Position numbers and translations under genes: made by a program. A stretch of DNA of 45,811 nt from Parcubacteria group bacterium GW2011_GWA2_40_23. GTDB lineage: Bacteria > Patescibacteriota > Patescibacteriia > UBA11705 > JABHMO01. The first letter of the stretch is position 1. Each line of letters starts with the position of its first letter. Location of the stretch: the NCBI GenBank assembly GCA_000996245.1, contig LBYP01000011.1:1-45811 (forward strand), written 5' to 3'. Of the stretch, positions 24,876 to 40,379 are shown piece after piece. The notes under the pieces are model-generated. The model was not told where the DNA came from, did no database searches, and saw only the letters and a program-made list of their open reading frames with translations.

Positions 24876-25997
24876 TTAAAAACATAAACTTTGTATCATC
24901 TTTTTATAGCACTCTATCATTATATCTATCTGATCAAATTTTACAAATTCATCTGCCTGGTGTGCCATTCTAAAATCTCCTGGTCCCCAGATGAGACAAT
25001 TACCCCAAATCTTAAAAAGCCCGGCTTGAGTCCAACCTTCAATAACATCAATCTTTGATTGCCCCATGACTTCTTCGGAAACAAATTTAGCGTTTAAAAA
25101 TAATTCCGTATCTTGGCTGACCAAATTAGCATCACCACAAAACACTGACTCAACTTTAGCTGTTTTATCAATAGCTAGAATAACTTTTTCGATTCTCTCA
25201 AATTCTTCTTGAATATTTTCTGTGGGTAAAAGACGACGATTGATGTTAAATGTACATTCGTCAGGAATAACATTTGGTGCGGTTCCTCCATGGATGGTGC
25301 AAATTGATTGAGTCGGTACTCGAAATAAATCATGTGTTCTTGTTTCTAGTTCTTCTTCGATCTTTGAAAGTTCCGCATAAGCCATCATAGCTTTATGGAT
25401 GGCATTATTCTTTTTATTGTTTTCTAAATTGGTGTCGGCCGAATGAGACGCAACGCCATAGAAAGTAACCTTGATTTCCATTGCGCCCTTTTGACCGACA
25501 TGTAGTTCACAATTTGTTGGTTCAGCAACTATAACATTAGCGGAACCCGGTTTGATTTCAACAGTATCAAGAAAACTTCTGCCACCTAATCCACTCACTT
25601 CCTCATCACAATCAAAAAGAAAGAAGATATCCTGCTTTGGTTTTTTATCGATGTTTAATGCAGTTTGGATCATAGCGGTTAAACCTGCTTTCATGTCGCA
25701 TGAGCCTAATCCAAACAACTTGTCATCTTTAACAATCGGCTCAAAAGGATTTTGAGTCCACTTACTAGAAGTCGGAACAGTATCTGTGTGTCCGCTGAAA
25801 ATAAGTGGCTTGTCATGTTCCTGACCTTCAAATTTGACTTCCAAATTATAAATCAAATTTTCGCTATTTTTCAGTGGAGTAATCTTCACTTTATCTGCTG
25901 GGAAAAAAGAAGCAATGAAGTCAACAATTTCTTTGTTGGAGTTTTGACTTTGGGAATCAAAGGAAATTAATTTTTTTAGTAGTTCTAAATTTTGCAT
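24876..25997 (-). CDS. M20 family metallopeptidase (ArgE/DapE-like deacylase)
   Basis: LIFSGHTDTVPTSSKWTQNPFEP...LFGLGSCDMKAGL...DCDEEVSGLGG. Confidence 0.88.
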   Translation of the reverse strand: MQNLELLKKLISFDSQSQNSNKEIVDFIASFFPADKVKITPLKNSENLIYNLEVKFEGQEHDKPLIFSGHTDTVPTSSKWTQNPFEPIVKDDKLFGLGSCDMKAGLTAMIQTALNIDKKPKQDIFFLFDCDEEVSGLGGRSFLDTVEIKPGSANVIVAEPTNCELHVGQKGAMEIKVTFYGVASHSADTNLENNKKNNAIHKAMMAYAELSKIEEELETRTHDLFRVPTQSICTIHGGTAPNVIPDECTFNINRRLLPTENIQEEFERIEKVILAIDKTAKVESVFCGDANLVSQDTELFLNAKFVSEEVMGQSKIDVIEGWTQAGLFKIWGNCLIWGPGDFRMAHQADEFVKFDQIDIMIECYKKMIQSLCF

Positions 25998-26066
25998 AAA
26001 TTTGTTTATTTACTCCATCGTAACAGACAGCCGAAAGTTGTCAAACGAAAATTTGAAGAAAAAAAT

Positions 26067-26094
26067 GTGGGAAAAGAGTTGACTCTTTTCCCAC
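26067..26094 (-). terminator. Intrinsic terminator after the second tRNA-His
   Basis: GTGGGAAAAGAGT-CA-ACTCTTTTCCCAC followed by ATTTTTTTC on the minus strand. Confidence 0.85.
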
Positions 26095-26100
26095 ACGCAG

Positions 26101-26173
26101 TAGCCGGGACGGGCATCGAACCCGCGACACACAGATCCACAGTCTGTTGCTCTACCAATTGAGCTACCCGGCC
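26101..26173 (-). tRNA. tRNA-His(GTG), non-canonical: U-1, G1:U72, A73, CCA not encoded
   Basis: GGCCGGG TA GCTC AATTGGTA GAGC A ACAGA CTGTGGA TCTGT GTGTC GCGGG TTCGATG CCCGT CCCGGCT A; intact cloverleaf. Confidence 0.85.
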
Positions 26174-26214
26174 ATCTGAGTACAGGTTAACACTATTTAA
26201 TTATTTGTCAAGAG

Positions 26215-26252
26215 TAAAAAAATCGAGCCGCAGCAATGGTGCATACGGCTCG
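26215..26252 (-). terminator. Intrinsic terminator of HisRS-2 gene
   Basis: ACGAGCCG...CGGCTCG-ATTTTTTTAC on the minus strand. Confidence 0.8.
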
Positions 26253-26259
26253 TTGTTTA

Positions 26260-27630
26260 CTATTTCCCTTGTGAAAGCTTCTCGATGTTCCAATCGACGG
26301 TGATCGGACCTTGCTTGCCAGTAGTCATGTCTTTGAGGGTCACGGTTCCATTCGCCAATTCACTCTCACCGATGATGACCACGAACGGAATACCGAGCAT
26401 GTTGGCGCGTCCAAGTTGCTCACGGAGTCCTGACTCTGCTCCGTCGTAAAGCATCACGTTTCTAGCGGTCAAGCGGAACCCTTGGGCGACTTCGATGGCT
26501 CGCTCTCTGCAACCAGCACTCGGTCGGTAAGCGACGAGAACTTGTGCCACCGACTTCGGCAGAGTGAAAAGACCCTTCTTTTTGGCGTAGACCATGAACC
26601 GATCGATGCCGAAGGATGCGCCCGTGGCCGGTGCCGGCATCTCGACGAACCTGTCCGTCAGATTGTCGTAGCGGCCACCCGAGAAGATCGATCCTGTCTC
26701 GGGGCTATCCGTGAGAATTGTTTCGAAGATAGGTCCAGTGTAGTAGCCGAGTCCGCGAACCATTGACGGCTCGATGAGAATGCGACTCTTCTCGACACCG
26801 AACAGATCCAGGTAGCGCATGATCTCTTCGAGTTCGCAGCAACCTTGTTCAGCAACCGCACTACCCGCGAGGATAGTACGAATTGCCGCGAAACGTTCTA
26901 CGTTGCTGCCGGTGATATTGCAGAACTCCACGAGCTTCACGATCTGCGCTTCATTCAACAGAATCGCGTAGTCTTCACGTTCGATCTTTGCCAGTTCGCC
27001 TTCGAGCGTCTCTTCGGGCTTGAGCTTGTCCTTCTTGTCGAGAACAGTCAGCACAGCCTGCAGATAACGCGCCGGGAATTTAACGTACTCGGGCAATCCA
27101 TCGAGGATCTTGCGGTTGTTCAGGAGCACAAGGTGTGTGTTAATGCCGAGAGCACGCATGCATTCATCCATGAGAGCGATGATCTGCGCATCCGACATCA
27201 TTCCAGGTGCGAACACGCTGTCCACATCGCACTGCGTGAATTCGCAGAAACGTGTAGCTGACGGCGTTTCGCCGCGAAAGACTTGAGCGATCTGGTAACG
27301 CATGAAGGGTCTGGGCAGCTTTTCGTAGTACGCTGCCACGAACCGCCCCAGTGCAACCGTCAGATCAAACCTGAGACCCAGTTTAGGTCGCTCACCCTCT
27401 TCGGGGTGAAAGGTGTTCTCGACCTTAAAGAACTGCATGTCCGTCTTTTCTTCGGCTCCGAACAGCGTTGAAAGATACTGCACGGTTGACGAGTCGAACG
27501 GTTCGAAACCGAAACGCTCAAACACGGCAATGAGGATGTTCAGGATGTGGCGCTTGAGGATCATGTCCTCAGGCGTGATATCGCGGAAACCAGCAGCCAG
27601 AACGGCTTTCACTCGGTCTTTTGCGTCCAT
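26260..27630 (-). CDS. hisS: Second, divergent GC-rich histidyl-tRNA synthetase (HisRS-2)
   Basis: Class II motif 2 RYQIAQVFRGETPSATRFCEFTQCDVD; HisA motif MVRGLGYYTGPIFE; motif 3 GASFGIDR; start MDAKDRV. Confidence 0.85.
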   Translation of the reverse strand: MDAKDRVKAVLAAGFRDITPEDMILKRHILNILIAVFERFGFEPFDSSTVQYLSTLFGAEEKTDMQFFKVENTFHPEEGERPKLGLRFDLTVALGRFVAAYYEKLPRPFMRYQIAQVFRGETPSATRFCEFTQCDVDSVFAPGMMSDAQIIALMDECMRALGINTHLVLLNNRKILDGLPEYVKFPARYLQAVLTVLDKKDKLKPEETLEGELAKIEREDYAILLNEAQIVKLVEFCNITGSNVERFAAIRTILAGSAVAEQGCCELEEIMRYLDLFGVEKSRILIEPSMVRGLGYYTGPIFETILTDSPETGSIFSGGRYDNLTDRFVEMPAPATGASFGIDRFMVYAKKKGLFTLPKSVAQVLVAYRPSAGCRERAIEVAQGFRLTARNVMLYDGAESGLREQLGRANMLGIPFVVIIGESELANGTVTLKDMTTGKQGPITVDWNIEKLSQGK

Positions 27631-27677
27631 GATTCTTCCCTCTCTGGAGGTCAATTTAAGAACTCCACGAACACTCT

Positions 27678-27706
27678 AATTTAACACCCACGATAGAAGA
27701 AGTCAA
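27678..27706 (-). promoter_or_regulatory. Promoter of HisRS-2 cassette
   Basis: TTGACT-17 nt-TAAATT. Confidence 0.6.
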
Positions 27707-27762: not shown

Positions 27763-28797
27763 CTACAGCATCGACCGCGAAATCGCAATCTCCTCGAGAA
27801 TCGGGACGTCGGGACGCCGATAGAAGTACGGTACACGATCAAGGTCACGCACCATGATCGTTACAGGTCGTTGAAGAACACGTGAACTTTCTTCTTCAAT
27901 CCCACGATAAAGCCTGGCCGAAAGGTCCAGCATCGCCAACGAGAAGGCCCTAGCTTCTTTTTCTGGGATACTGGCCCAGTGAACAGGATCTCCTAAGGGC
28001 AGCAAGTACGGAGCACAGAGATTCCCCAACATGGGTGCGTTGGGGTAATGGATGTTTACTTGTGTCGGATGGCCAGGAGGTGGATCGACTTTCTGACCGA
28101 GGGTTCTGCCACCGAAAGGTACTCCTACATAGAAGTCTCGTTCCACGACCCAATCCACGATCTTGCCAGGTTCAAATTCGCCGCCTTCTGCTGCGAACAA
28201 GCGATCCTCGATCGCACGTATCTGTGATGTACGTTTTGCCTGGCGAATACGGAGGGCAACTAGGAACTTGTTGATTTCAATTCCGCGTTCGCGGAAGATC
28301 TGATCGACTGCGTAGAAAGTTCCGCCAGTCCAAACACCATCGTCCACGATTGCAATTTCCCGCTTTTCTGACACAGCACTGTGGCGGTCGATCGCATCGA
28401 GCTGCGTCAGAATCATCGGCGAACCGATGCGATTCCCCTTCCCCAAATCGCTCCAGGTTGGGTTATCGGGGTGCTTGCTGTGTCCGATGAGGCGCGTGGT
28501 CGACAGGAACAGATCAGCTTCTTCCACGAAGATACTCTCGAGACTAACGAGCGGTATGCCGTTGCGTTCTCTCTCGATGAGATCCATGAGCCGCCGCTTT
28601 GTAACGCGCCACGGAATGAATTCCACGTCCACTCCACGCGGTTCGAAGATACGCTTCAGCTCGGTAATTAACCCCTCCATCAGATTACCAAAGAAAAAAC
28701 GAGCCGGCACCGAGAATCCGTGCCTCTTGGCCCACTCCATGACGACTATGGCCAGGTCACCGGTTACGAGATACTTTGGCCTAACCGTTGGTCGCAT
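27763..28797 (-). CDS. Phosphoribosyltransferase-fold-like protein (GC-rich cassette)
   Basis: PRPP-loop-like EIAIVDDGVWTGGTFYAV; start MRPTVRPK after GGGAGGATGGA. Confidence 0.65.
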   Translation of the reverse strand: MRPTVRPKYLVTGDLAIVVMEWAKRHGFSVPARFFFGNLMEGLITELKRIFEPRGVDVEFIPWRVTKRRLMDLIERERNGIPLVSLESIFVEEADLFLSTTRLIGHSKHPDNPTWSDLGKGNRIGSPMILTQLDAIDRHSAVSEKREIAIVDDGVWTGGTFYAVDQIFRERGIEINKFLVALRIRQAKRTSQIRAIEDRLFAAEGGEFEPGKIVDWVVERDFYVGVPFGGRTLGQKVDPPPGHPTQVNIHYPNAPMLGNLCAPYLLPLGDPVHWASIPEKEARAFSLAMLDLSARLYRGIEEESSRVLQRPVTIMVRDLDRVPYFYRRPDVPILEEIAISRSML

Positions 28798-28882
28798 TCC
28801 ATCCTCCCAGTGGTTGAACAAGCTAGTCCTAATTGTTTCCTCCTGCTACGGCTATGTTAATTTATACCTTATAAAAATGCAA

Positions 28883-29422
28883 CTATTTGTTTTTCTTAGC
28901 AATTTCAGATTCCGCTAAAGCAACTGCTTCTTCTGGAGTATTTGCTCCAAGTGCTTTACGTCTATTGCGTCCATCAATGTATTGATCAGCCAACTTCTCG
29001 GCCCAACCACCTGTATTTTTCATCACAATTATAGGAATATCTAATTGATAAGCAATAGCTATTTCATTTAAAGTTCCTGAACCACCACTTACAGCGATAA
29101 TTGCGTCGCAACTGTTTACTAAAACAAATTCACGGCCACCGCCACGTTCTAGACCCGAAACAATAATGACATCTGTGTTTCCTTCTTTATCCCAAACGTC
29201 TTTGCCTGTCGAATATGTAACACCAACAGTCAGTCCACCTTTTCTTTTGGCTCCACGAGCACCCGCTGTTGATAATGAATCATAATCCTTTTCTGCACCA
29301 TAAACCAAGATGTAGCCTTTTTCAGCCACAATCTCACCAATACGTTCAGCTATTTTTTGAATTTCTTCTGAATATTTTAAATCAGCTGCCGAACCCATCA
29401 CTCCAATTTGTAATTTACGCAT
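28883..29422 (-). CDS. TIGR00725/LOG-like Rossmann-fold protein
   Basis: IGVMGSAADLKYSEEIQKIAERIGEIVAEKGYILVYGA...AIIAVSGGSGTLNEIAIAYQL. Confidence 0.8.
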   Translation of the reverse strand: MRKLQIGVMGSAADLKYSEEIQKIAERIGEIVAEKGYILVYGAEKDYDSLSTAGARGAKRKGGLTVGVTYSTGKDVWDKEGNTDVIIVSGLERGGGREFVLVNSCDAIIAVSGGSGTLNEIAIAYQLDIPIIVMKNTGGWAEKLADQYIDGRNRRKALGANTPEEAVALAESEIAKKNK

Positions 29423-29431
29423 AAACTATTT

Positions 29432-30262
29432 TTATATTATTTTATCTAAATTTAGCAAAATTTCTTCTACGCCCTTGGTTATTTTTTCAGGGCTGACATA
29501 ATCAGCCAATTCTCTAACTTCTGCGGTAGCATTATTGACAACACAGAACTTATCAACTTTCCCGAGCAAAGGTTTATCTAAAACATCATCAGCGATAACA
29601 ATTTTTTTATATTCCGGATAGTAACTGGCTAATTTATCAAAAGCTTTGCCTTTATCATAATTCTTTGGATAAATTAATAAGTTACAAAAACTATCACAAC
29701 AACTAACTACTAATTCTAGATTTTGACGAGTCACATACTGATTCAATAGACCTGAAATTTTTCTTAACGCTGGAATATTTTCCTGTAAAGATCCGTTAAA
29801 ATGTTCTCGCACATGAATACTACTGCTGAAATTACGAAAACAATTTTCCACAAAAACATTTTTAAGCAAGGGATCAAGATTTAAGCTATCAGGATTTTTA
29901 TTAACTTCAGTGGTATCTTCGATAATGTAAAATGAATCTTCAAAGTTTTGTTTAACTAGCTGTGGTAAAATGTTCTTAACTTGACTTAAGTGCATAATAA
30001 TTTCATCGTCAACTAATATGTCTCTTTCAGCTGTCAAAGTGTCATAAATAAAACAACCATTTTCCCCAATTATTTTTCCGCCTAATTCAAACATTTTTAC
30101 TACAGGTAGAATGTCTTCAAGTGATCGATTGGAATTAAGAACAAAAACATGTCCTTCTCTTTTCATTTGATCAATCACAGAATTAATGGTCGGCGAAGTA
30201 GATCGATAGTTATGATCGATCAAGGTGTTATCAATGTCAAGAATAATAAGATATTTATTCAT
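29432..30262 (-). CDS. HAD-superfamily hydrolase (Cof-like)
   Basis: YLIILDIDNTLIDHN...VLNSNRS...KKIVIADDVLDKPLL. Confidence 0.8.
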   Translation of the reverse strand: MNKYLIILDIDNTLIDHNYRSTSPTINSVIDQMKREGHVFVLNSNRSLEDILPVVKMFELGGKIIGENGCFIYDTLTAERDILVDDEIIMHLSQVKNILPQLVKQNFEDSFYIIEDTTEVNKNPDSLNLDPLLKNVFVENCFRNFSSSIHVREHFNGSLQENIPALRKISGLLNQYVTRQNLELVVSCCDSFCNLLIYPKNYDKGKAFDKLASYYPEYKKIVIADDVLDKPLLGKVDKFCVVNNATAEVRELADYVSPEKITKGVEEILLNLDKII

Positions 30263-30310
30263 AGAGTCTGTAATAATCAGTATAGCCAGTGCCGAAAATG
30301 TTGTCAATTT

Positions 30311-30347
30311 AAATAAAAGCGGGAGCAACTGATGTCAGTTACCCCCG
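30311..30347 (-). terminator. Intrinsic terminator of hutH cassette
   Basis: GGGGGTAACTGA-CA-TCAGTTGCTCCC-GCTTTTATTT. Confidence 0.8.
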
Positions 30348-30355
30348 TGGTTCAC

Positions 30356-31990
30356 CTAGCTGTGTTCGAGTGCCTTCAGCAGTTCGCCTTTGGTCACGAG
30401 CTCGCGCACGCGTTGGATGTCTGGGTACAGGGAACGATCTTCGTGCATCATCGGTACGTACTGCCGGATGCAATCGTAGCCACGTTTCGTGCCTTGGCCG
30501 AGAACAGCGAGATCGCCCAGGTGGGGCGTTCCCAAGTCAACAGCCTGGCAACCTGCCAGCAGTTCCACGGCCAGGACGCTTCTCAGGTCACCAAGGGTCT
30601 TGCGCAGCCCCCAGGCCGAGTTGGCGCCATTGGACACGTAGTCTTCCTGCTGCATGGAAGTCGGAATGGACAGCGCGGAGAACGCCGCGCCCGCCAGTCC
30701 TTGTGCGTGCATGACACGCGAGGCGACGGCATACTGCGCGATCATGAGAGCAGTATTGTCCTCGTCATCGGAGCCGGCTAGGTCTGCCGGCAATCCGAAA
30801 CTCCAAGCCGGATTCAGCAAACGATAGAGACGTGCGTTCGAAATGCTGGCCAGCTTGGCCAAGGCGATGATCGCTGCGTCCAAGGGGATCGCGAGCGGAT
30901 CACCATGGAAGTTGCCCCCCGAAAGGACCGAGAGCTTCCCACGTTTTCCAGCAAACACCAAGGGGTTGTCAGTGCTGGCGTTAATTTCGTTCTGGACGAT
31001 GGTCGCCAAGTTCAAGAGAGCGTCATAGACGGCTCCATGCGCTTGCGGCGCACAGCGCAACGAATACGCGTCCTGAACTCGAGAGCCCTTCCGCTTGCGA
31101 CGGTCGGGACGCTTCTTCTCGTCTGGGAAGTCTATCTTCTGCGCTTCGGACGTTGTTCGCAAACTGCCAGCGAGCAAGTCACGCAATTCGCTTGCTACGA
31201 TCTGCTGGCCATCTTGGTGGCGTGCTTCGTGGATACGAGCGTCAAAGGCATTGAGTTCACCTCTGATCGCTTCCGCATGGAGCGCAGCGCCCAGGTTGGC
31301 AAGCGTCAACAGACCAAAGGCGTCGTGAACACCCAAAGCAGCGTTGGCCAGGATGAACGTCGCGCCGTTGGTGAGTCCCATGGCTTCCTTGGGCTGCAGT
31401 ACGTGATGCTCGAGCTTCACTTCCGTGAAGACTTCTCTTGCATTGCGTCTTTCGCCCTTGTAGAAAACCTCAGCCCATGGCAGTCCGATGAGCACTGCGC
31501 CCAGATGAGCCAACGGAACGAGGTCGCCACTCGCGCCTACGCTCCCGAATTCCGGGATAACCGGCGTGATGTCCATGTTCAGCAGATCCAGGATCAGTTC
31601 GCACAGTTGGACTGTCATGGCCGAATTGTTGAGCGAAAACGAGTTGACACGGAGCAACATCATGGCGCGTACCACTTCGCGGGGCAGCGGCTGACCAAAG
31701 CCAACCGCGTGTGTCATGATGTACTTCTTCTGGTAACGGATCAGATCTGCGAGCGGGATGATCTTGTTACGGTTCGATCCACATCCAGTGTTGATCCCGT
31801 ACATGACTCTCCGCGGGATCAACTTCTCGAGCCAGCCACGGATGACGACCATCCTGTCTCTGACTTCAGGGTCGAGTCGCACCATGGGGAAATCGCTCGT
31901 GTGCGCCCGTGCAATTCGCACGACCTCCAAAAAGGACAGTTTACCTTTGAGATGGATCACATGACCATCTCCTTGTGCGTTTGCGTTCAT
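30356..31990 (-). CDS. hutH: Histidine ammonia-lyase (MIO enzyme)
   Basis: MIO motif FGSVGASGDLVPLAHLGAVLIG; active-site-type TH in YIMTHAVGFG; DNPLVF; start after GAGGAGGTTCCC. Confidence 0.88.
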   Translation of the reverse strand: MNANAQGDGHVIHLKGKLSFLEVVRIARAHTSDFPMVRLDPEVRDRMVVIRGWLEKLIPRRVMYGINTGCGSNRNKIIPLADLIRYQKKYIMTHAVGFGQPLPREVVRAMMLLRVNSFSLNNSAMTVQLCELILDLLNMDITPVIPEFGSVGASGDLVPLAHLGAVLIGLPWAEVFYKGERRNAREVFTEVKLEHHVLQPKEAMGLTNGATFILANAALGVHDAFGLLTLANLGAALHAEAIRGELNAFDARIHEARHQDGQQIVASELRDLLAGSLRTTSEAQKIDFPDEKKRPDRRKRKGSRVQDAYSLRCAPQAHGAVYDALLNLATIVQNEINASTDNPLVFAGKRGKLSVLSGGNFHGDPLAIPLDAAIIALAKLASISNARLYRLLNPAWSFGLPADLAGSDDEDNTALMIAQYAVASRVMHAQGLAGAAFSALSIPTSMQQEDYVSNGANSAWGLRKTLGDLRSVLAVELLAGCQAVDLGTPHLGDLAVLGQGTKRGYDCIRQYVPMMHEDRSLYPDIQRVRELVTKGELLKALEHS

Positions 31991-32075
31991 GGGAACCTCC
32001 TCATAGTGCAGATGTTCAGAAACAAATATTTTCAGCACCCCGGTTAGTGGGTGCAACCCAACTTACCATTAGATT

Positions 32076-32155: not shown

Positions 32156-33454
32156 TTATTTGACTTTTGTGCAAATTTCTTCGAAACTACAACTTACCTG
32201 CTCACCGGTTGTCATGTTTTTTAAAGTATATTTTTCTTGTTTAACTTCATCATCACCAAGAACAATTACCCAAGGCATGCCATAGCTGTTGGCATATTCC
32301 ATGTTCTTACCAACTTTTCTCTCAAGGAAATCAATATCCGCAGCGATTCCTTTTGCACGTAATTTTTCAACGAGCTGAAATGCCGGTGCAAAATTTTCTT
32401 TACTTACAGGTAAGACATAAATCTCTGCAACTGACTGTTTTGATAATATCCCTTTGTTTTGAATTTGTAATGCATCAAAAATTGTATCTAGTCCGAAGCT
32501 AACACCAACTGCTGGATATTTTTCATCGGTACCAATAAAACCACCAATCATATTATCAAATCTACCACCAGCACAAATTGATGAAGAAAGTTGTGAGGTG
32601 TCTTTTAAAAAAACCTCAAAAACATTCCCCGTATAATAGGCCAAACCACGTGCTAAGTTTGGGATGAATTCAAGATTGTCAGCACCAACTAGATTGATTG
32701 TCTTTTCTAAATCTTTCAAACCATCTATTTCACCCAGTAAATCTTTTAAACTCTGAATCTTTTCAATATTTGAGCCTGTCAGCGCTAATGTTTTTAAAAT
32801 TTCATCTGCGGTTTCCGCATTTATCTTTTTATCAAGTAATTCGGCCTTAACTCCAACATCGCCAATTTTATCAAACTTATCGATAGAAATAATAGCTGAG
32901 ATCTGAGATTCTTCTGGTACGCCACATTTAGATAAAATAGCATTTAAAACATTACGATTATTTGTCTTGATGACAACTTCTAAATTTAATTTACTAAAAA
33001 CAGTGTTAATTAATTTTACCAGTTCAGCATCAACAGCAGGATTAGAAACACCAACAACGTCAACATCGCATTGATAAAACTCTCGATAACGACCGAGTTT
33101 AATTGGACCATCGCGGAAAACTTTACCAATTTGATAACGTTTAAAAGGCATTTTAAGTTGCGGATTCATGCCAACAAAACGTGCAAATGGCACAGTAAAT
33201 TCTGTACGTAAAACCAAATCGCGTAAACCTTGATCTTTTAATTTAAAAGTTTCGCGCATGGCATCTGATTCTTGGCCAATACCATATTTTGATGCGAAAA
33301 GTTCATAGCGTTCCATCACCGGTGTTTCGATTGGATTATAACCATACAACTCAAAAACTGAGCGTAATGTTTGAATTAGCTTGTCGCGAGCAATCTTTTC
33401 GGCTGGGCCAAAGTCTCGAACACCCTTTGCGCGTTGTAAGGCTTCGTTTTGCAT
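32156..33454 (-). CDS. hisS: Histidyl-tRNA synthetase (HisRS-1, AT-rich, likely housekeeping)
   Basis: Motif 2 RYQIGKVFRDGPIKLGRYREFYQCDVDVVG; HisA motif LARGLAYYTGNVFEVF. Confidence 0.92.
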   Translation of the reverse strand: MQNEALQRAKGVRDFGPAEKIARDKLIQTLRSVFELYGYNPIETPVMERYELFASKYGIGQESDAMRETFKLKDQGLRDLVLRTEFTVPFARFVGMNPQLKMPFKRYQIGKVFRDGPIKLGRYREFYQCDVDVVGVSNPAVDAELVKLINTVFSKLNLEVVIKTNNRNVLNAILSKCGVPEESQISAIISIDKFDKIGDVGVKAELLDKKINAETADEILKTLALTGSNIEKIQSLKDLLGEIDGLKDLEKTINLVGADNLEFIPNLARGLAYYTGNVFEVFLKDTSQLSSSICAGGRFDNMIGGFIGTDEKYPAVGVSFGLDTIFDALQIQNKGILSKQSVAEIYVLPVSKENFAPAFQLVEKLRAKGIAADIDFLERKVGKNMEYANSYGMPWVIVLGDDEVKQEKYTLKNMTTGEQVSCSFEEICTKVK

Positions 33455-33541: not shown

Positions 33542-33619
33542 TGGGGCGGACGACGGGGTTCGAACCCGCGACCCTTGGTACCACAAACCAATGCTCTAAC
33601 CAACTGAGCTACGTCCGCC
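33542..33619 (-). tRNA. tRNA-His(GTG), canonical (G-1:C73, CCA encoded)
   Basis: G GCGGACG TA GCTC...TTGGT-TTGTGGT-ACCAA...CGTCCGC C CCA. Confidence 0.93.
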
Positions 33620-33710: not shown

Positions 33711-33772
33711 CAATTTACAAAAAACTGCAACCAGCGCTTTACTGATGATGATGGTGGTGATGAATTGCAGTT
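33702..33772 (-). promoter_or_regulatory. Mutually exclusive attenuator pairings: 1:2 AACTGCAA/TTGCAGTT and 2:3 GCTGGTTG/CAGCCAGC
   Basis: 33765-33772 pairs with 33723-33730; 33728-33735 pairs with 33702-33709; the two share three nt and region 3 overlaps the terminator stem. Confidence 0.8.
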
Positions 33773-33783
33773 ACTTTTTTCAT
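33739..33783 (-). CDS. Histidine leader peptide MKKVTAIHHHHHHQ*
   Basis: ATG AAA AAA GTA ACT GCA ATT CAT CAC CAC CAT CAT CAT CAG TAA: six consecutive His codons directly before a terminator and tRNA-His/hisS. Confidence 0.88.
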   Translation of the reverse strand: MKKVTAIHHHHHHQ

Positions 33784-35679: not shown

Positions 35680-36519
35680 CTAGGCCTCGACCTCCGGGGT
35701 CTGCGGCATGAGCTCGGGGAAGGCGTGCCCCAGGAACGGAGCCAGGGCGGCGTCGAGGGCAACGCGCGTGCGGTGCCGACCCCTCACCTGCGCCTCGAAG
35801 GCGAGCGGGGCGCAGGTGTCCAGCAGCTCCATGAGCTGCGGCACCTCGACGCCCTGGCGCGCCAGGAAGTTGCGCAGGACCTGCAGGCTGGCGGCGGCGT
35901 CGGCCAGGATCTTGGGGATCTTGGCGTTGGTGGCCTCCTTCACCTTGGCGTAGAAGGTGGCCAGGACCAGGGCGTTCACGTCGTCGCGGTAGGCGCTGTA
36001 CTTGGCGCCCAGGAGCTTCAGCGAGAACCGATCGTCCTCGTCTCGCGTGAGCTGCCCGATGAACGGCGCGATCTGGCCGACGAGCCCCTCGATCATCTCG
36101 ACGAGGTGCAGCGGCATGCCCTGCGGCGGCTGCGGCATGCGGCGCGCGTCGGGGAGCACGAACTCGACCGGGAGCCTGTCCCAGTCGATGGTCGGGAGCA
36201 TGTCGACCCCTTCCTCGACCAGGTTGTACGCGAAGCGCTCGACGGTGTCGAGCAGGTTGCCACGGTCGTACTCGAGGGCGGCGACGAACTCCTGGATGAT
36301 CCTGGCCACGGTGCTGCCGATCTGCAGGCGCTCGGCCGTGAAGCCGGTCACCTTCAGGACCCTCGCGTTTCCGTCCATCTCGAGGACCCACGGGGCGTCG
36401 GCCTCCGGGAAGCCCTCGGCGAGCAGCGCGAGCTGCTTCTCGATGACGCTGATGCGCGGGGTTGTGCGCACTCCGAAGCTTCCGACCTCGATCAGGAAGT
36501 GCAGGTCTTGTCTTCGCAT
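35680..36519 (-). CDS. Uncharacterised GC-rich protein (279 aa)
   Basis: AGGAGGTT Shine-Dalgarno, own promoter and terminator; no family recognised. Confidence 0.75.
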   Translation of the reverse strand: MRRQDLHFLIEVGSFGVRTTPRISVIEKQLALLAEGFPEADAPWVLEMDGNARVLKVTGFTAERLQIGSTVARIIQEFVAALEYDRGNLLDTVERFAYNLVEEGVDMLPTIDWDRLPVEFVLPDARRMPQPPQGMPLHLVEMIEGLVGQIAPFIGQLTRDEDDRFSLKLLGAKYSAYRDDVNALVLATFYAKVKEATNAKIPKILADAAASLQVLRNFLARQGVEVPQLMELLDTCAPLAFEAQVRGRHRTRVALDAALAPFLGHAFPELMPQTPEVEA

Positions 36520-38360: not shown

Positions 38361-40379
38361 CTAGACGATCTTGGCCAGGATCTCGAGATCAACGAAGTTC
38401 GCCAAGGTCGGCTTGAACCTGTCAACGCGTAAAGCTTCCTGACGCACCGCCCAATTCGCGGACGGACTGCCAGCCCAGGCACGACGAGTAACGCCGCAAA
38501 GCACATCCCAGGTGAGCATGATCTCTATGGTCGCATCTACGCTTCGACTACCATCGAGTACCAGACCGAAGCCACCATTTATCGCTCTTCCCCAGCCAGT
38601 GCCGCCACCGTGGTGCAGCGACACCCAGGTAGCACCTCGCATGGCATTACCGATGACACACTGCGTAGCCATATCGGCCGTGGGAGCAGAACCGTCGTGA
38701 ACGCTGGAAGTCTCTCGCAGGAAAGAATCCGTACCACCAGTGTCGTGGTGATCACGGCCAATGACGATAGGACCATGTAGTCGCCCATCGCGAATTGCTT
38801 CATTCATGGCCAGACCGAGTTTCACACGGCCCTCTGCGTTGCTGTAAAAGATACGCGCCCGAGTCCCGATTGCTAGTTCGTGTTTGCCAGCATCGAGAAT
38901 CCACTGAGCATTGTCTTTCAGCTGCTGCTTGATTTCATCCGGTGCATCCATGAGCATTTGCTCAGTTACTTCGATGGCGATTTGATCCGTCGTGGCCAGA
39001 TCTTCGTCGAGGCCACTCAAGCACACCCAGCGGTACGGGCCAAATCCGTAGTCGAAGTACAGGGGACCCATGAGACCTTCGACGTAACTCTGATATCGCG
39101 GCTGGCCGTGTTCGTCAAAGATATCCGCACCAGATTCGATGGCCACGTCAATGAAACTGTTGCCGTAGTCCCAGAACTTCATGTCCAGAGCTACGTGCAT
39201 GTTAACGACAAGGACATGTGCGCGAATGGATTTTTGCACCTTCAACCTGAAGGCCGCAGCATCACTTTCACGCAAAGCATCTGCTTCTTCTACTGTCATA
39301 CCTGACGGATAGTAACCCCCGCCGTAGGCGTCATGCAAAGAAGTCTGGTCTGAACCCAGATCGACTCTGATGTTTTCGACGAGTAAATGTTTCCAAAGAT
39401 CAACCACGTTACCATGGTAACCAAGGGAAACTGCTTCGCCGTTCGCCACAGCTTCGCGAATACGATCTGAGAGGACTTTGAGGTCGGTATGTATTTCATC
39501 CAACCAACCCTGATCGTGGCGCTTTTGCAGCCACCTCATCTTCACTTCAGCAACAACGACGACTGCGCCGAGAATCACACCAGCCTTGGCTTGAGCACCG
39601 CTCATGCCGCCCAAACCCGACGTGACGATGAGTTTCCCTTTCAGGTTCTCATTCACACCAAGATTGAGCCACTTACGTGCGGCATTCAAGAACGTGATGA
39701 CCGTACCGTGCACGATTCCCTGACTACCAATGTACATCCATGACCCTGCGGTCATTTGTCCATACATGGTTACGCCGAGTTGGGCGAGTCGTTCGTACTC
39801 TTCGGGAGTACCGAAGCGCGGAACAACGAGACCGTTCGTCAATACGACGCGCGGAGAATCTGGATACGACGGATAGAGTCCATCCGGGTGGCCGGACTTC
39901 ATAACCAGCGTTTGCCGATTCGTCATCTTCGAAAGATACCACATGGTCAAACGGTATTGTGCCCAGTTCTGGAACACGCCACCATTGCCACCGTACGTGA
40001 TCATCTCGAACGGGTACTGCGCCACGTCTGTGTGCAGATTGTTCTGGATCATGAGCATCATGGACCTTGCGGCCAGGATCTGGGCGGGATACTCGTCGAC
40101 AGGACGCGCCAGAACCGGGAACTGCGGACGGAAGCGATGCATGTAGATGCGACCGAGCGTCCGCAACTCGTTCAAGAACTCAGGACCGAGGATGGCGTGC
40201 CATTTAGCTGGGAAATACCGCAGCGCATTGGCCACTGCTTGCTTCTGTTCCGCGAGAGTCAGAACCAGCTTACGCTTCAATGCTCGAGGCACCTCTGCGG
40301 CAACCCGCGGCATGTCCGGCAGATAATCCGGAATGCCTTGCAGGATTTCTTCCTGCCAGGTTTGTGGTCGGGGTATCAT
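38361..40379 (-). CDS. hutU: Urocanate hydratase
   Basis: YGGNGGVFQNWAQYRLTMWYLSKMTNRQTLVMKSGHPDGLYPS...VTSGLGGMSGAQ...GRDHHDTGGTDSFLRET. Confidence 0.93.
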   Translation of the reverse strand: MIPRPQTWQEEILQGIPDYLPDMPRVAAEVPRALKRKLVLTLAEQKQAVANALRYFPAKWHAILGPEFLNELRTLGRIYMHRFRPQFPVLARPVDEYPAQILAARSMMLMIQNNLHTDVAQYPFEMITYGGNGGVFQNWAQYRLTMWYLSKMTNRQTLVMKSGHPDGLYPSYPDSPRVVLTNGLVVPRFGTPEEYERLAQLGVTMYGQMTAGSWMYIGSQGIVHGTVITFLNAARKWLNLGVNENLKGKLIVTSGLGGMSGAQAKAGVILGAVVVVAEVKMRWLQKRHDQGWLDEIHTDLKVLSDRIREAVANGEAVSLGYHGNVVDLWKHLLVENIRVDLGSDQTSLHDAYGGGYYPSGMTVEEADALRESDAAAFRLKVQKSIRAHVLVVNMHVALDMKFWDYGNSFIDVAIESGADIFDEHGQPRYQSYVEGLMGPLYFDYGFGPYRWVCLSGLDEDLATTDQIAIEVTEQMLMDAPDEIKQQLKDNAQWILDAGKHELAIGTRARIFYSNAEGRVKLGLAMNEAIRDGRLHGPIVIGRDHHDTGGTDSFLRETSSVHDGSAPTADMATQCVIGNAMRGATWVSLHHGGGTGWGRAINGGFGLVLDGSRSVDATIEIMLTWDVLCGVTRRAWAGSPSANWAVRQEALRVDRFKPTLANFVDLEILAKIV

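Follow-up and report, generated by a model that had tools for sequence, protein, structure and literature searches.

The genome of Parcubacteria group bacterium GW2011_GWA2_40_23 encodes a second histidyl-tRNA synthetase (HisRS2), whose gene is followed on the same strand by a second tRNA-His gene (tRNA-His2) that lacks the G-1:C73 pair. We consider it likely that the two genes form an identity-insulated accessory histidine-charging cassette that has spread among Patescibacteria and has left the G-1:C73 rule. The analyzed window is the whole of contig C11 (45,811 nucleotides) from a 1.22-Mb genome in 37 contigs, which is 99.8% complete and 1.5% contaminated. The nearest named relative in our searches was Candidatus Falkowbacteria RIFOXYC2_FULL_36_12. 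The genome contains three HisRS-like genes (HisRS1, HisRS2, and HisRS3) and two tRNA-His genes, both located in the window (Table 1); a third tRNA-His was sought in the genome and not found.

Table 1. Features of the window associated with histidine charging and histidine-related genes
Feature	Position	Strand	Evidence or remark
M20 ArgE/DapE-family deacylase	24876..25997	-	recurrent in islands
Terminator-like hairpin 3' of tRNA-His2	26065..26096	-	14 pairs
tRNA-His2 (GUG)	26101..26173	-	Rfam RF00005, 65.9 bits; ARAGORN; ends by script
TTGACA, possible -35 box for tRNA-His2, weak -10	26206..26211	-	read from sequence; conjectural
Terminator-like hairpin and T-run 3' of hisS2	26216..26252	-	fold and sequence
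hisS2 (HisRS2)	26260..27630	-	TIGR00442, 296.6 bits; PF13393; PF03129; catalytic positions kept
PRTase-like protein	27763..28821	-	recurrent in islands; weak adenine PRTase similarity; family F5, 8 loci
SLOG/TIGR00725-type protein	28883..29422	-	recurrent in islands
HAD-IIB phosphatase-like protein	29432..30328	-	recurrent in islands
HAL/hutH-like histidine ammonia-lyase family protein	30356..32056	-	PF00221, E = 1e-142; MIO motif present
hisS1 (HisRS1)	32156..33454	-	above TIGR00442 cut-off; no histidine in protein
Canonical tRNA-His, upstream of hisS1	33545..33619	-	G-1 at 33619, C73, CCA
His-codon leader peptide MKKVTAIHHHHHHQ	33739..33783	-	before tRNA-His/hisS1; similar leaders in G001 and G003
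HutU, urocanate hydratase	38361..40379	-	TIGR01228, 399.9 bits, above cut-off

HisRS2 and tRNA-His2

The hisS2 reading frame is open from a TTG at 27654 (464 aa), and translation probably starts from the ATG at 27630 (456 aa), which is preceded by GAGAGGG. The 464-aa frame exceeds the cut-off of the NCBIfam hisS model (286.75 bits). The protein comprises a class II core and an anticodon-binding domain, and its catalytic residues and histidine pocket are intact at T85, R113, Q127, R259, Y263, and Y264. It is histidine-poor, and no histidine is present in five relatives. Like HisZ, the regulatory subunit of ATP phosphoribosyltransferase, HisRS2 belongs to a family of HisRS paralogues, and a PRTase-like gene adjoins hisS2; unlike HisZ, it scores above the hisS cut-off and retains the anticodon-binding domain and the catalytic positions. 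Assignment to HisZ was rejected, since HisRS2 reached 143 bits vs the 272 bits of TIGR00443 and was below every other HisZ cut-off too.

The distance from hisS2 to tRNA-His2 is exactly 86 nt, with the tRNA downstream on the same strand, as an earlier note on this DNA had stated. Its description of an intact tRNA with a GTG anticodon, U-1, G1:U72, A73, and no encoded CCA was also borne out by ARAGORN, Infernal, a script, and inspection by eye. Both programs recovered a full cloverleaf, A73 is followed by CTG, and U-1 pairs with A73 in the minimum free energy fold. The Infernal check for a pseudogene, which that note had proposed, gave a score far above the gathering score of 29, and this ruled out a pseudogene. 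Thus, tRNA-His2 has the cloverleaf, the GUG anticodon, and the score of a functional tRNA-His, and its U-1 and A73 depart from the canonical bacterial G-1:C73 pair. The tRNA-Trp, tRNA-Thr, and other tRNA-His genes of the window all encode CCA, and the latter has G-1 and C73, again in agreement with the earlier reading. On other contigs, two more tRNA genes, Thr(CGU) and Pro(GGG), also lack encoded CCA, and a CCA-adding enzyme is encoded; therefore, the absence of CCA from tRNA-His2 is by itself unremarkable, and the idea that this tRNA cannot mature for want of CCA was rejected. A search of the genome for Thg1 did not find it, and on this ground eukaryote-style post-transcriptional addition of G-1 opposite A73 was rejected.

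In the window, hisS2 and tRNA-His2 look like separate transcription units because a hairpin with a T-run follows the former and a strong terminator follows the latter. The possible -35 box of tRNA-His2 was not picked up by a consensus promoter scan.

Distribution and phylogeny

A profile search (E ≤ 1e-70) found HisRS2-like genes in 41 of the 384 genomes of the class, a set that also includes some HisRS1-like genes, and strong matches were present in other classes as well. In the maximum-likelihood tree, HisRS2 forms one clade of 22 patescibacterial sequences (support 98/98), and HisRS1 forms a separate clade (100/100). Next to HisRS2 stand alphaproteobacterial HisRS and that of a single Acidobacteriota MAG; the node that unites them, which includes G052, has a support of 85/93. 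The HisRS2 clade lies outside the alphaproteobacterial clade, and the G-1-less HisRS of alphaproteobacteria appears to be its sister rather than its parent; a recent gift from alphaproteobacteria was rejected on the basis of this tree. The Acidobacteriota MAG with the sister HisRS (L261) has an apparent U72/A73 tRNA-His, which we gave no weight because the 10.3-Mb bin may be mixed.

A same-strand tRNA-His lies within about 100 nt of 16 of the 23 HisRS2-type genes (the 22-sequence clade and G052). Fourteen of these tRNAs are located 6–86 nt downstream and two just upstream, and the spacing in most relatives is 6–50 nt. The tRNA-His beside HisRS2 in G196 is of the native type, and the HisRS2 genes of f21 have no linked tRNA. 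Since the arrangement is kept in relatives whose HisRS2 proteins are just ~31%–42% identical, it is not due to chance. G007, a separately assembled Falkowbacteria genome, has the gene order HAL - HisRS2 - tRNA-His - canonical tRNA-His - HisRS1 - GNAT - M20 - tRNA-Thr, which ties the two HisRS/tRNA pairs together. Its HisRS2-adjacent tRNA-His has C-1, A73, and no CCA, and the locus lies in low-GC sequence.

tRNA ends and the motif-2 loop

The G-1:C73 pair is kept in just 3 of 22 companion tRNAs of HisRS2 and departed from in the other 19. The data set comprised 19 companions, including two located elsewhere in the genome (G349 and G311) and one of a Collierbacteria HisRS outside the HisRS2 clade, and three companions from other classes. 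Among the 19, all but the three canonical ones have U, C, or A at position -1 combined with A, C, or U at position 73; those from other classes have C-1:A73, U-1:A73, and U-1:C73. On the contrary, both G-1 and C73 are present in all 18 native and all six HisRS1-linked patescibacterial tRNA-His (16/19 vs 0/24, Fisher p = 4e-9, a descriptive value rather than a strict probability, since the sequences share ancestry). The tRNA tree, based on few columns, is suggestive at most. The general feature of the companions is therefore loss of the G-1:C73 rule, with A73 as one state among several. The weight that the earlier note gave to A73 is not supported as it stood: position 73 of the companions can be A, C, or U, and all four bases occur at -1. 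The refuting condition that it set, HisRS2 homologues consistently without an A73 tRNA-His, had a mixed outcome in the co-occurrence survey, which revealed homologues lacking an A73 tRNA, most of them still with a non-canonical companion.

In Escherichia coli HisRS, C73 is read by Q118 and G-1 by R123 (PMC10100707). HisRS2 of the source genome (G000) has T116, S118, and C123 vs R116, Q118, and R123 of the E. coli enzyme. In the HisRS alignment, just three further enzymes lack R123, those of G007 (C), G249 (C), and G130 (N). The companion tRNAs of these four R123-less HisRS2 enzymes all lack G-1, and those of the three Cys123 enzymes (G000, G007, and G249) all have A73. Several HisRS2 enzymes with non-canonical companions retain both Q118 and R123, so that the motif-2 covariation is partial, and a strict Q118-to-N73 rule, not found in the alignment, was rejected. 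The earlier proposal of a matched pair thus stands in part: linkage of 16/23 genes, absence of the identity pair, loss of the motif-2 contacts, and foreign composition speak for it, while the A73 element of the proposal is not constant.

The same data bear on the reading that HisRS2 and its tRNA are redundant transferred spares without real insulation, in which G-1:C73 drifted as the anticodon dominates recognition and cross-charging is free. Companions are nearly unconstrained at N-1 and N73, Q118 and R123 are retained in many HisRS2 enzymes, and GC3 indicates recent acquisition in several genomes, all as expected for such spares; however, the native and HisRS1-linked tRNAs of the same lineages have not drifted (24/24), and HisRS2 of the source genome lacks all three motif-2 contacts. 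We regard this reading as rather unlikely. The native enzymes may still charge tRNA-His2 via the anticodon.

Resident histidyl-tRNA synthetases

HisRS1 (432–440 aa) contains no histidine in any of seven relatives (the window protein, L021:11906-13228, L029, L030, L031, L032, and L033) vs three to nine residues in E. coli-type HisRS. It was apparently selected to be histidine-free so that its synthesis can proceed under histidine starvation. In three genomes of one family, tRNA-His/hisS1 is preceded by leader peptides with histidine codons, MKKVTAIHHHHHHQ (window), MKQMNTIHHHHLSQ, and MNSANQNHHSHHCRLLLD, which look like transcription attenuators; the other sites are L032:9935-9979 (minus strand) and, in L229, upstream of its tRNA-His. 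The tRNA-His/hisS1 operon of a sister family has a conserved structured leader instead (L021:11536-11689; aligned in L030 and L033). The structured leader of G007 matched the T-box model with E = 6e-8, yet well under the gathering score.

HisRS3, encoded on contig C7, is of the E. coli type, and drift has affected both its motif-2 loop and its His-A motif (RTFDYY in the source genome vs RGLDYY). In the HisRS3 proteins of this order (comparison loci L022:8265-9593, minus strand, and L283-L290), the arginine equivalent to R259 is absent in G005, G009, and G010. The drift suggests lost or altered function in this order, and because of it, resident histidine charging is probably carried out by HisRS1 together with the G-1:C73 tRNA-His. 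HisRS1 was not found in G002, G004, and G005, nor was a recognizable tRNA-His (sought in G002 by one pattern only), and the histidine island may be absent from these genome bins.

Linkage to histidine ammonia-lyase and proposed role

The HAL of the window scores under the hutH equivalog cut-off. HAL (PF00221) is present in 24 of the 384 genomes of the class; the 41 genomes that carry HisRS2-like genes account for 16 of these (2.6 expected, p = 6e-12). This co-occurrence is spread over about ten families, and in 15 of the 16 genomes, the two genes lie no more than ~10 kb apart on one contig. The divergences of HAL and HisRS2 correlate (Mantel r = 0.54, p = 1e-4, 13 genomes), as expected if they were inherited together, by vertical or by lateral descent. 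The HAL sequences form two groups, and a functional tie is favored since both are HisRS2-linked. In G132, G218, G334, and G345, no HisRS was found near HAL in the stretch examined. HAL itself is not histidine-poor (2.8% histidine), a point against the reading proposed below. Genes recurrent in these islands encode M20, GNAT, HAD, PRTase-like, SLOG, AstE, and M15 proteins, nucleoside phosphorylase, and HutU. Judging by the linkage to HAL, CPR bacteria seem to possess a histidine-handling island that has not been described before.

We propose that hisS2 and tRNA-His2 would act as a self-contained histidine-charging cassette, probably a natural and partly separate second route to read histidine. 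Because its motif-2 side chains for G-1 and C73 are lost, HisRS2 would select its tRNA via the anticodon and the altered end, which in this genome means A73 and U72, as used by Caulobacter. tRNA-His2 would gain CCA from the CCA-adding enzyme of the cell and, as Thg1 was not found, has no obvious route to G-1. HisRS1 and the G-1:C73 tRNA, as the canonical pair, are presumed to work in parallel, and little cross-charging is expected. Both tRNAs would read CAU and CAC, so the cassette is best viewed as an insulated second supply of His-tRNA. The activity, specificity, and orthogonality of HisRS2 are predictions, the last of them drawn indirectly from enzyme residues and tRNA ends. The HAL linkage suggests, tentatively, that the cassette sustains charging when free histidine is scarce or consumed. 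Enzyme and tRNA, each needing the other, would be transferred as a unit and retained where the histidine supply fluctuates or histidine is degraded.

A more far-reaching version, which we find doubtful, is that HisRS/tRNA-His pairs tied to HAL are mutually orthogonal across the phylum and that the second pair serves a separate purpose, not spare translation. Such a purpose, itself equally doubtful, could be a response to histidine starvation, or else tRNA charging that serves a step off the ribosome or a derivative of histidine. Second synthetases are well known as resistance genes, and the HisRS2 pair could be insensitive to a HisRS inhibitor, or its tRNA could evade a tRNA-targeting toxin. 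The islands carry GNAT, S66-type LdcA-like, M20, and nucleotide-handling enzymes, which would suit resistance or immunity, and a resistance role was proposed for TrpRS-A of CPR bacteria (PMC5370408). However, this would leave the HAL linkage unexplained, and neither a toxin nor an inhibitor-biosynthesis gene was recognized nearby, which makes resistance improbable. Still less probable is a use outside translation, where His-tRNA-His2 would feed tRNA-dependent peptide or cell-wall modification or carry a histidine derivative made by the island. The HAL linkage and the recurrent GNAT, M20, and peptidase genes would agree with it, but the tRNA-His2 body is fully canonical with a GUG anticodon, the histidine-pocket positions of HisRS2 are conserved, and no aminoacyl-tRNA transferase family was recognized in the island.

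Comparison with known systems

Few tRNA identity rules are as conserved as the G-1:C73 pair, and we know of no intermediates of its loss in alphaproteobacteria. HisRS2 companions show many end states in hosts that mostly keep a canonical tRNA-His, and a change of identity rule becomes testable inside one enzyme family.

The tRNA-His identity set of Caulobacter comprises the absence of G-1, A73, U72, and the anticodon, and the Caulobacter-type HisRS/tRNA-His pair has been reported to be orthogonal to the E. coli pair (PMC9976931, PMC3875453). The insulated cassette proposed here resembles the alphaproteobacterial pair in the tRNA without G-1 and with A73 and U72, in the position of HisRS2 in a neighboring clade, and in the replacement of Q118. 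The combination of A73, U72, and no G-1 is found in tRNA-His2, but not in most companions of its relatives. Moreover, the alphaproteobacterial pair is the main pair of the cell and follows one rule, whereas the HisRS2 pair is an extra beside the canonical one, its tRNA is genetically linked to hisS2, and N-1 and N73 vary between species.

Accessory TrpRS-A/tRNA-Trp(A73) pairs have been described from CPR bacteria (PMC5370408). They share with the HisRS2 pair an extra synthetase with an adjacent tRNA, a different discriminator base, coexistence with a canonical pair, and synthetases depleted in their own amino acid. They differ in that TrpRS-A is a class I enzyme for tryptophan, of archaeal origin and with the partner ORF1, while HisRS2 is a class II enzyme for histidine linked to HAL. 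One archaeon has two PylRS/tRNA-Pyl pairs (PMC9071458). There too, a single cell contains two pairs that serve the same amino acid and are distinguished by the discriminator base N73 and the motif-2 loop; orthogonality was measured for the PylRS pairs, whereas we infer it for the HisRS2 and HisRS1 pairs. Searches of an open-access literature collection for CPR/Patescibacteria with HisRS, tRNA-His, or HAL gave no account of the cassette. The G-1-less pair of some alphaproteobacteria and the TrpRS-A pairs of CPR bacteria were known already, and the HisRS2/tRNA-His2 cassette is new to the literature searched. It supplies ready-made candidate orthogonal HisRS/tRNA pairs.

Composition and origin of the locus

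Most of contig C11 has a GC content of ~35%, and stretches of 50%–60% GC contain the genes for HisRS2, the PRTase-like protein, HAL, the M20 peptidase, and HutU. GC3 is 0.65 for HisRS2 vs 0.25 for HisRS1, and the genes of the pair are compositionally foreign in the host genome. Abrupt GC jumps inside the contig could indicate an artefact, that is, a chimeric contig or a tRNA pseudogene, which is hardly credible, since G007, from a different assembly, has the same gene order at its own low GC, which led us to reject a chimera, and tRNA-His2 scores 65.9 bits. Viral contigs gave no relative, matches in the phage collection were weak and partial, and a phage origin was rejected. A plasmid origin was also rejected: plasmid matches were distant (≤35% identity among the matches listed), and the three that we inspected proved to be hisS genes of alphaproteobacteria or alphaproteobacterial DNA lacking annotation.

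A gene-like frame at 35680-36519 has 68% GC and a minus-strand GC3 of 0.95 vs the 35% GC of the genome; it has no family match, and both strands carry long frames. The genome also contains two odd tRNA genes: one is Trp(CCA)-like, lacks the usual U33, and adjoins a GC-rich stretch (L037:5073-5148); the other scores low and has mispaired stems (L035:8238-8311).
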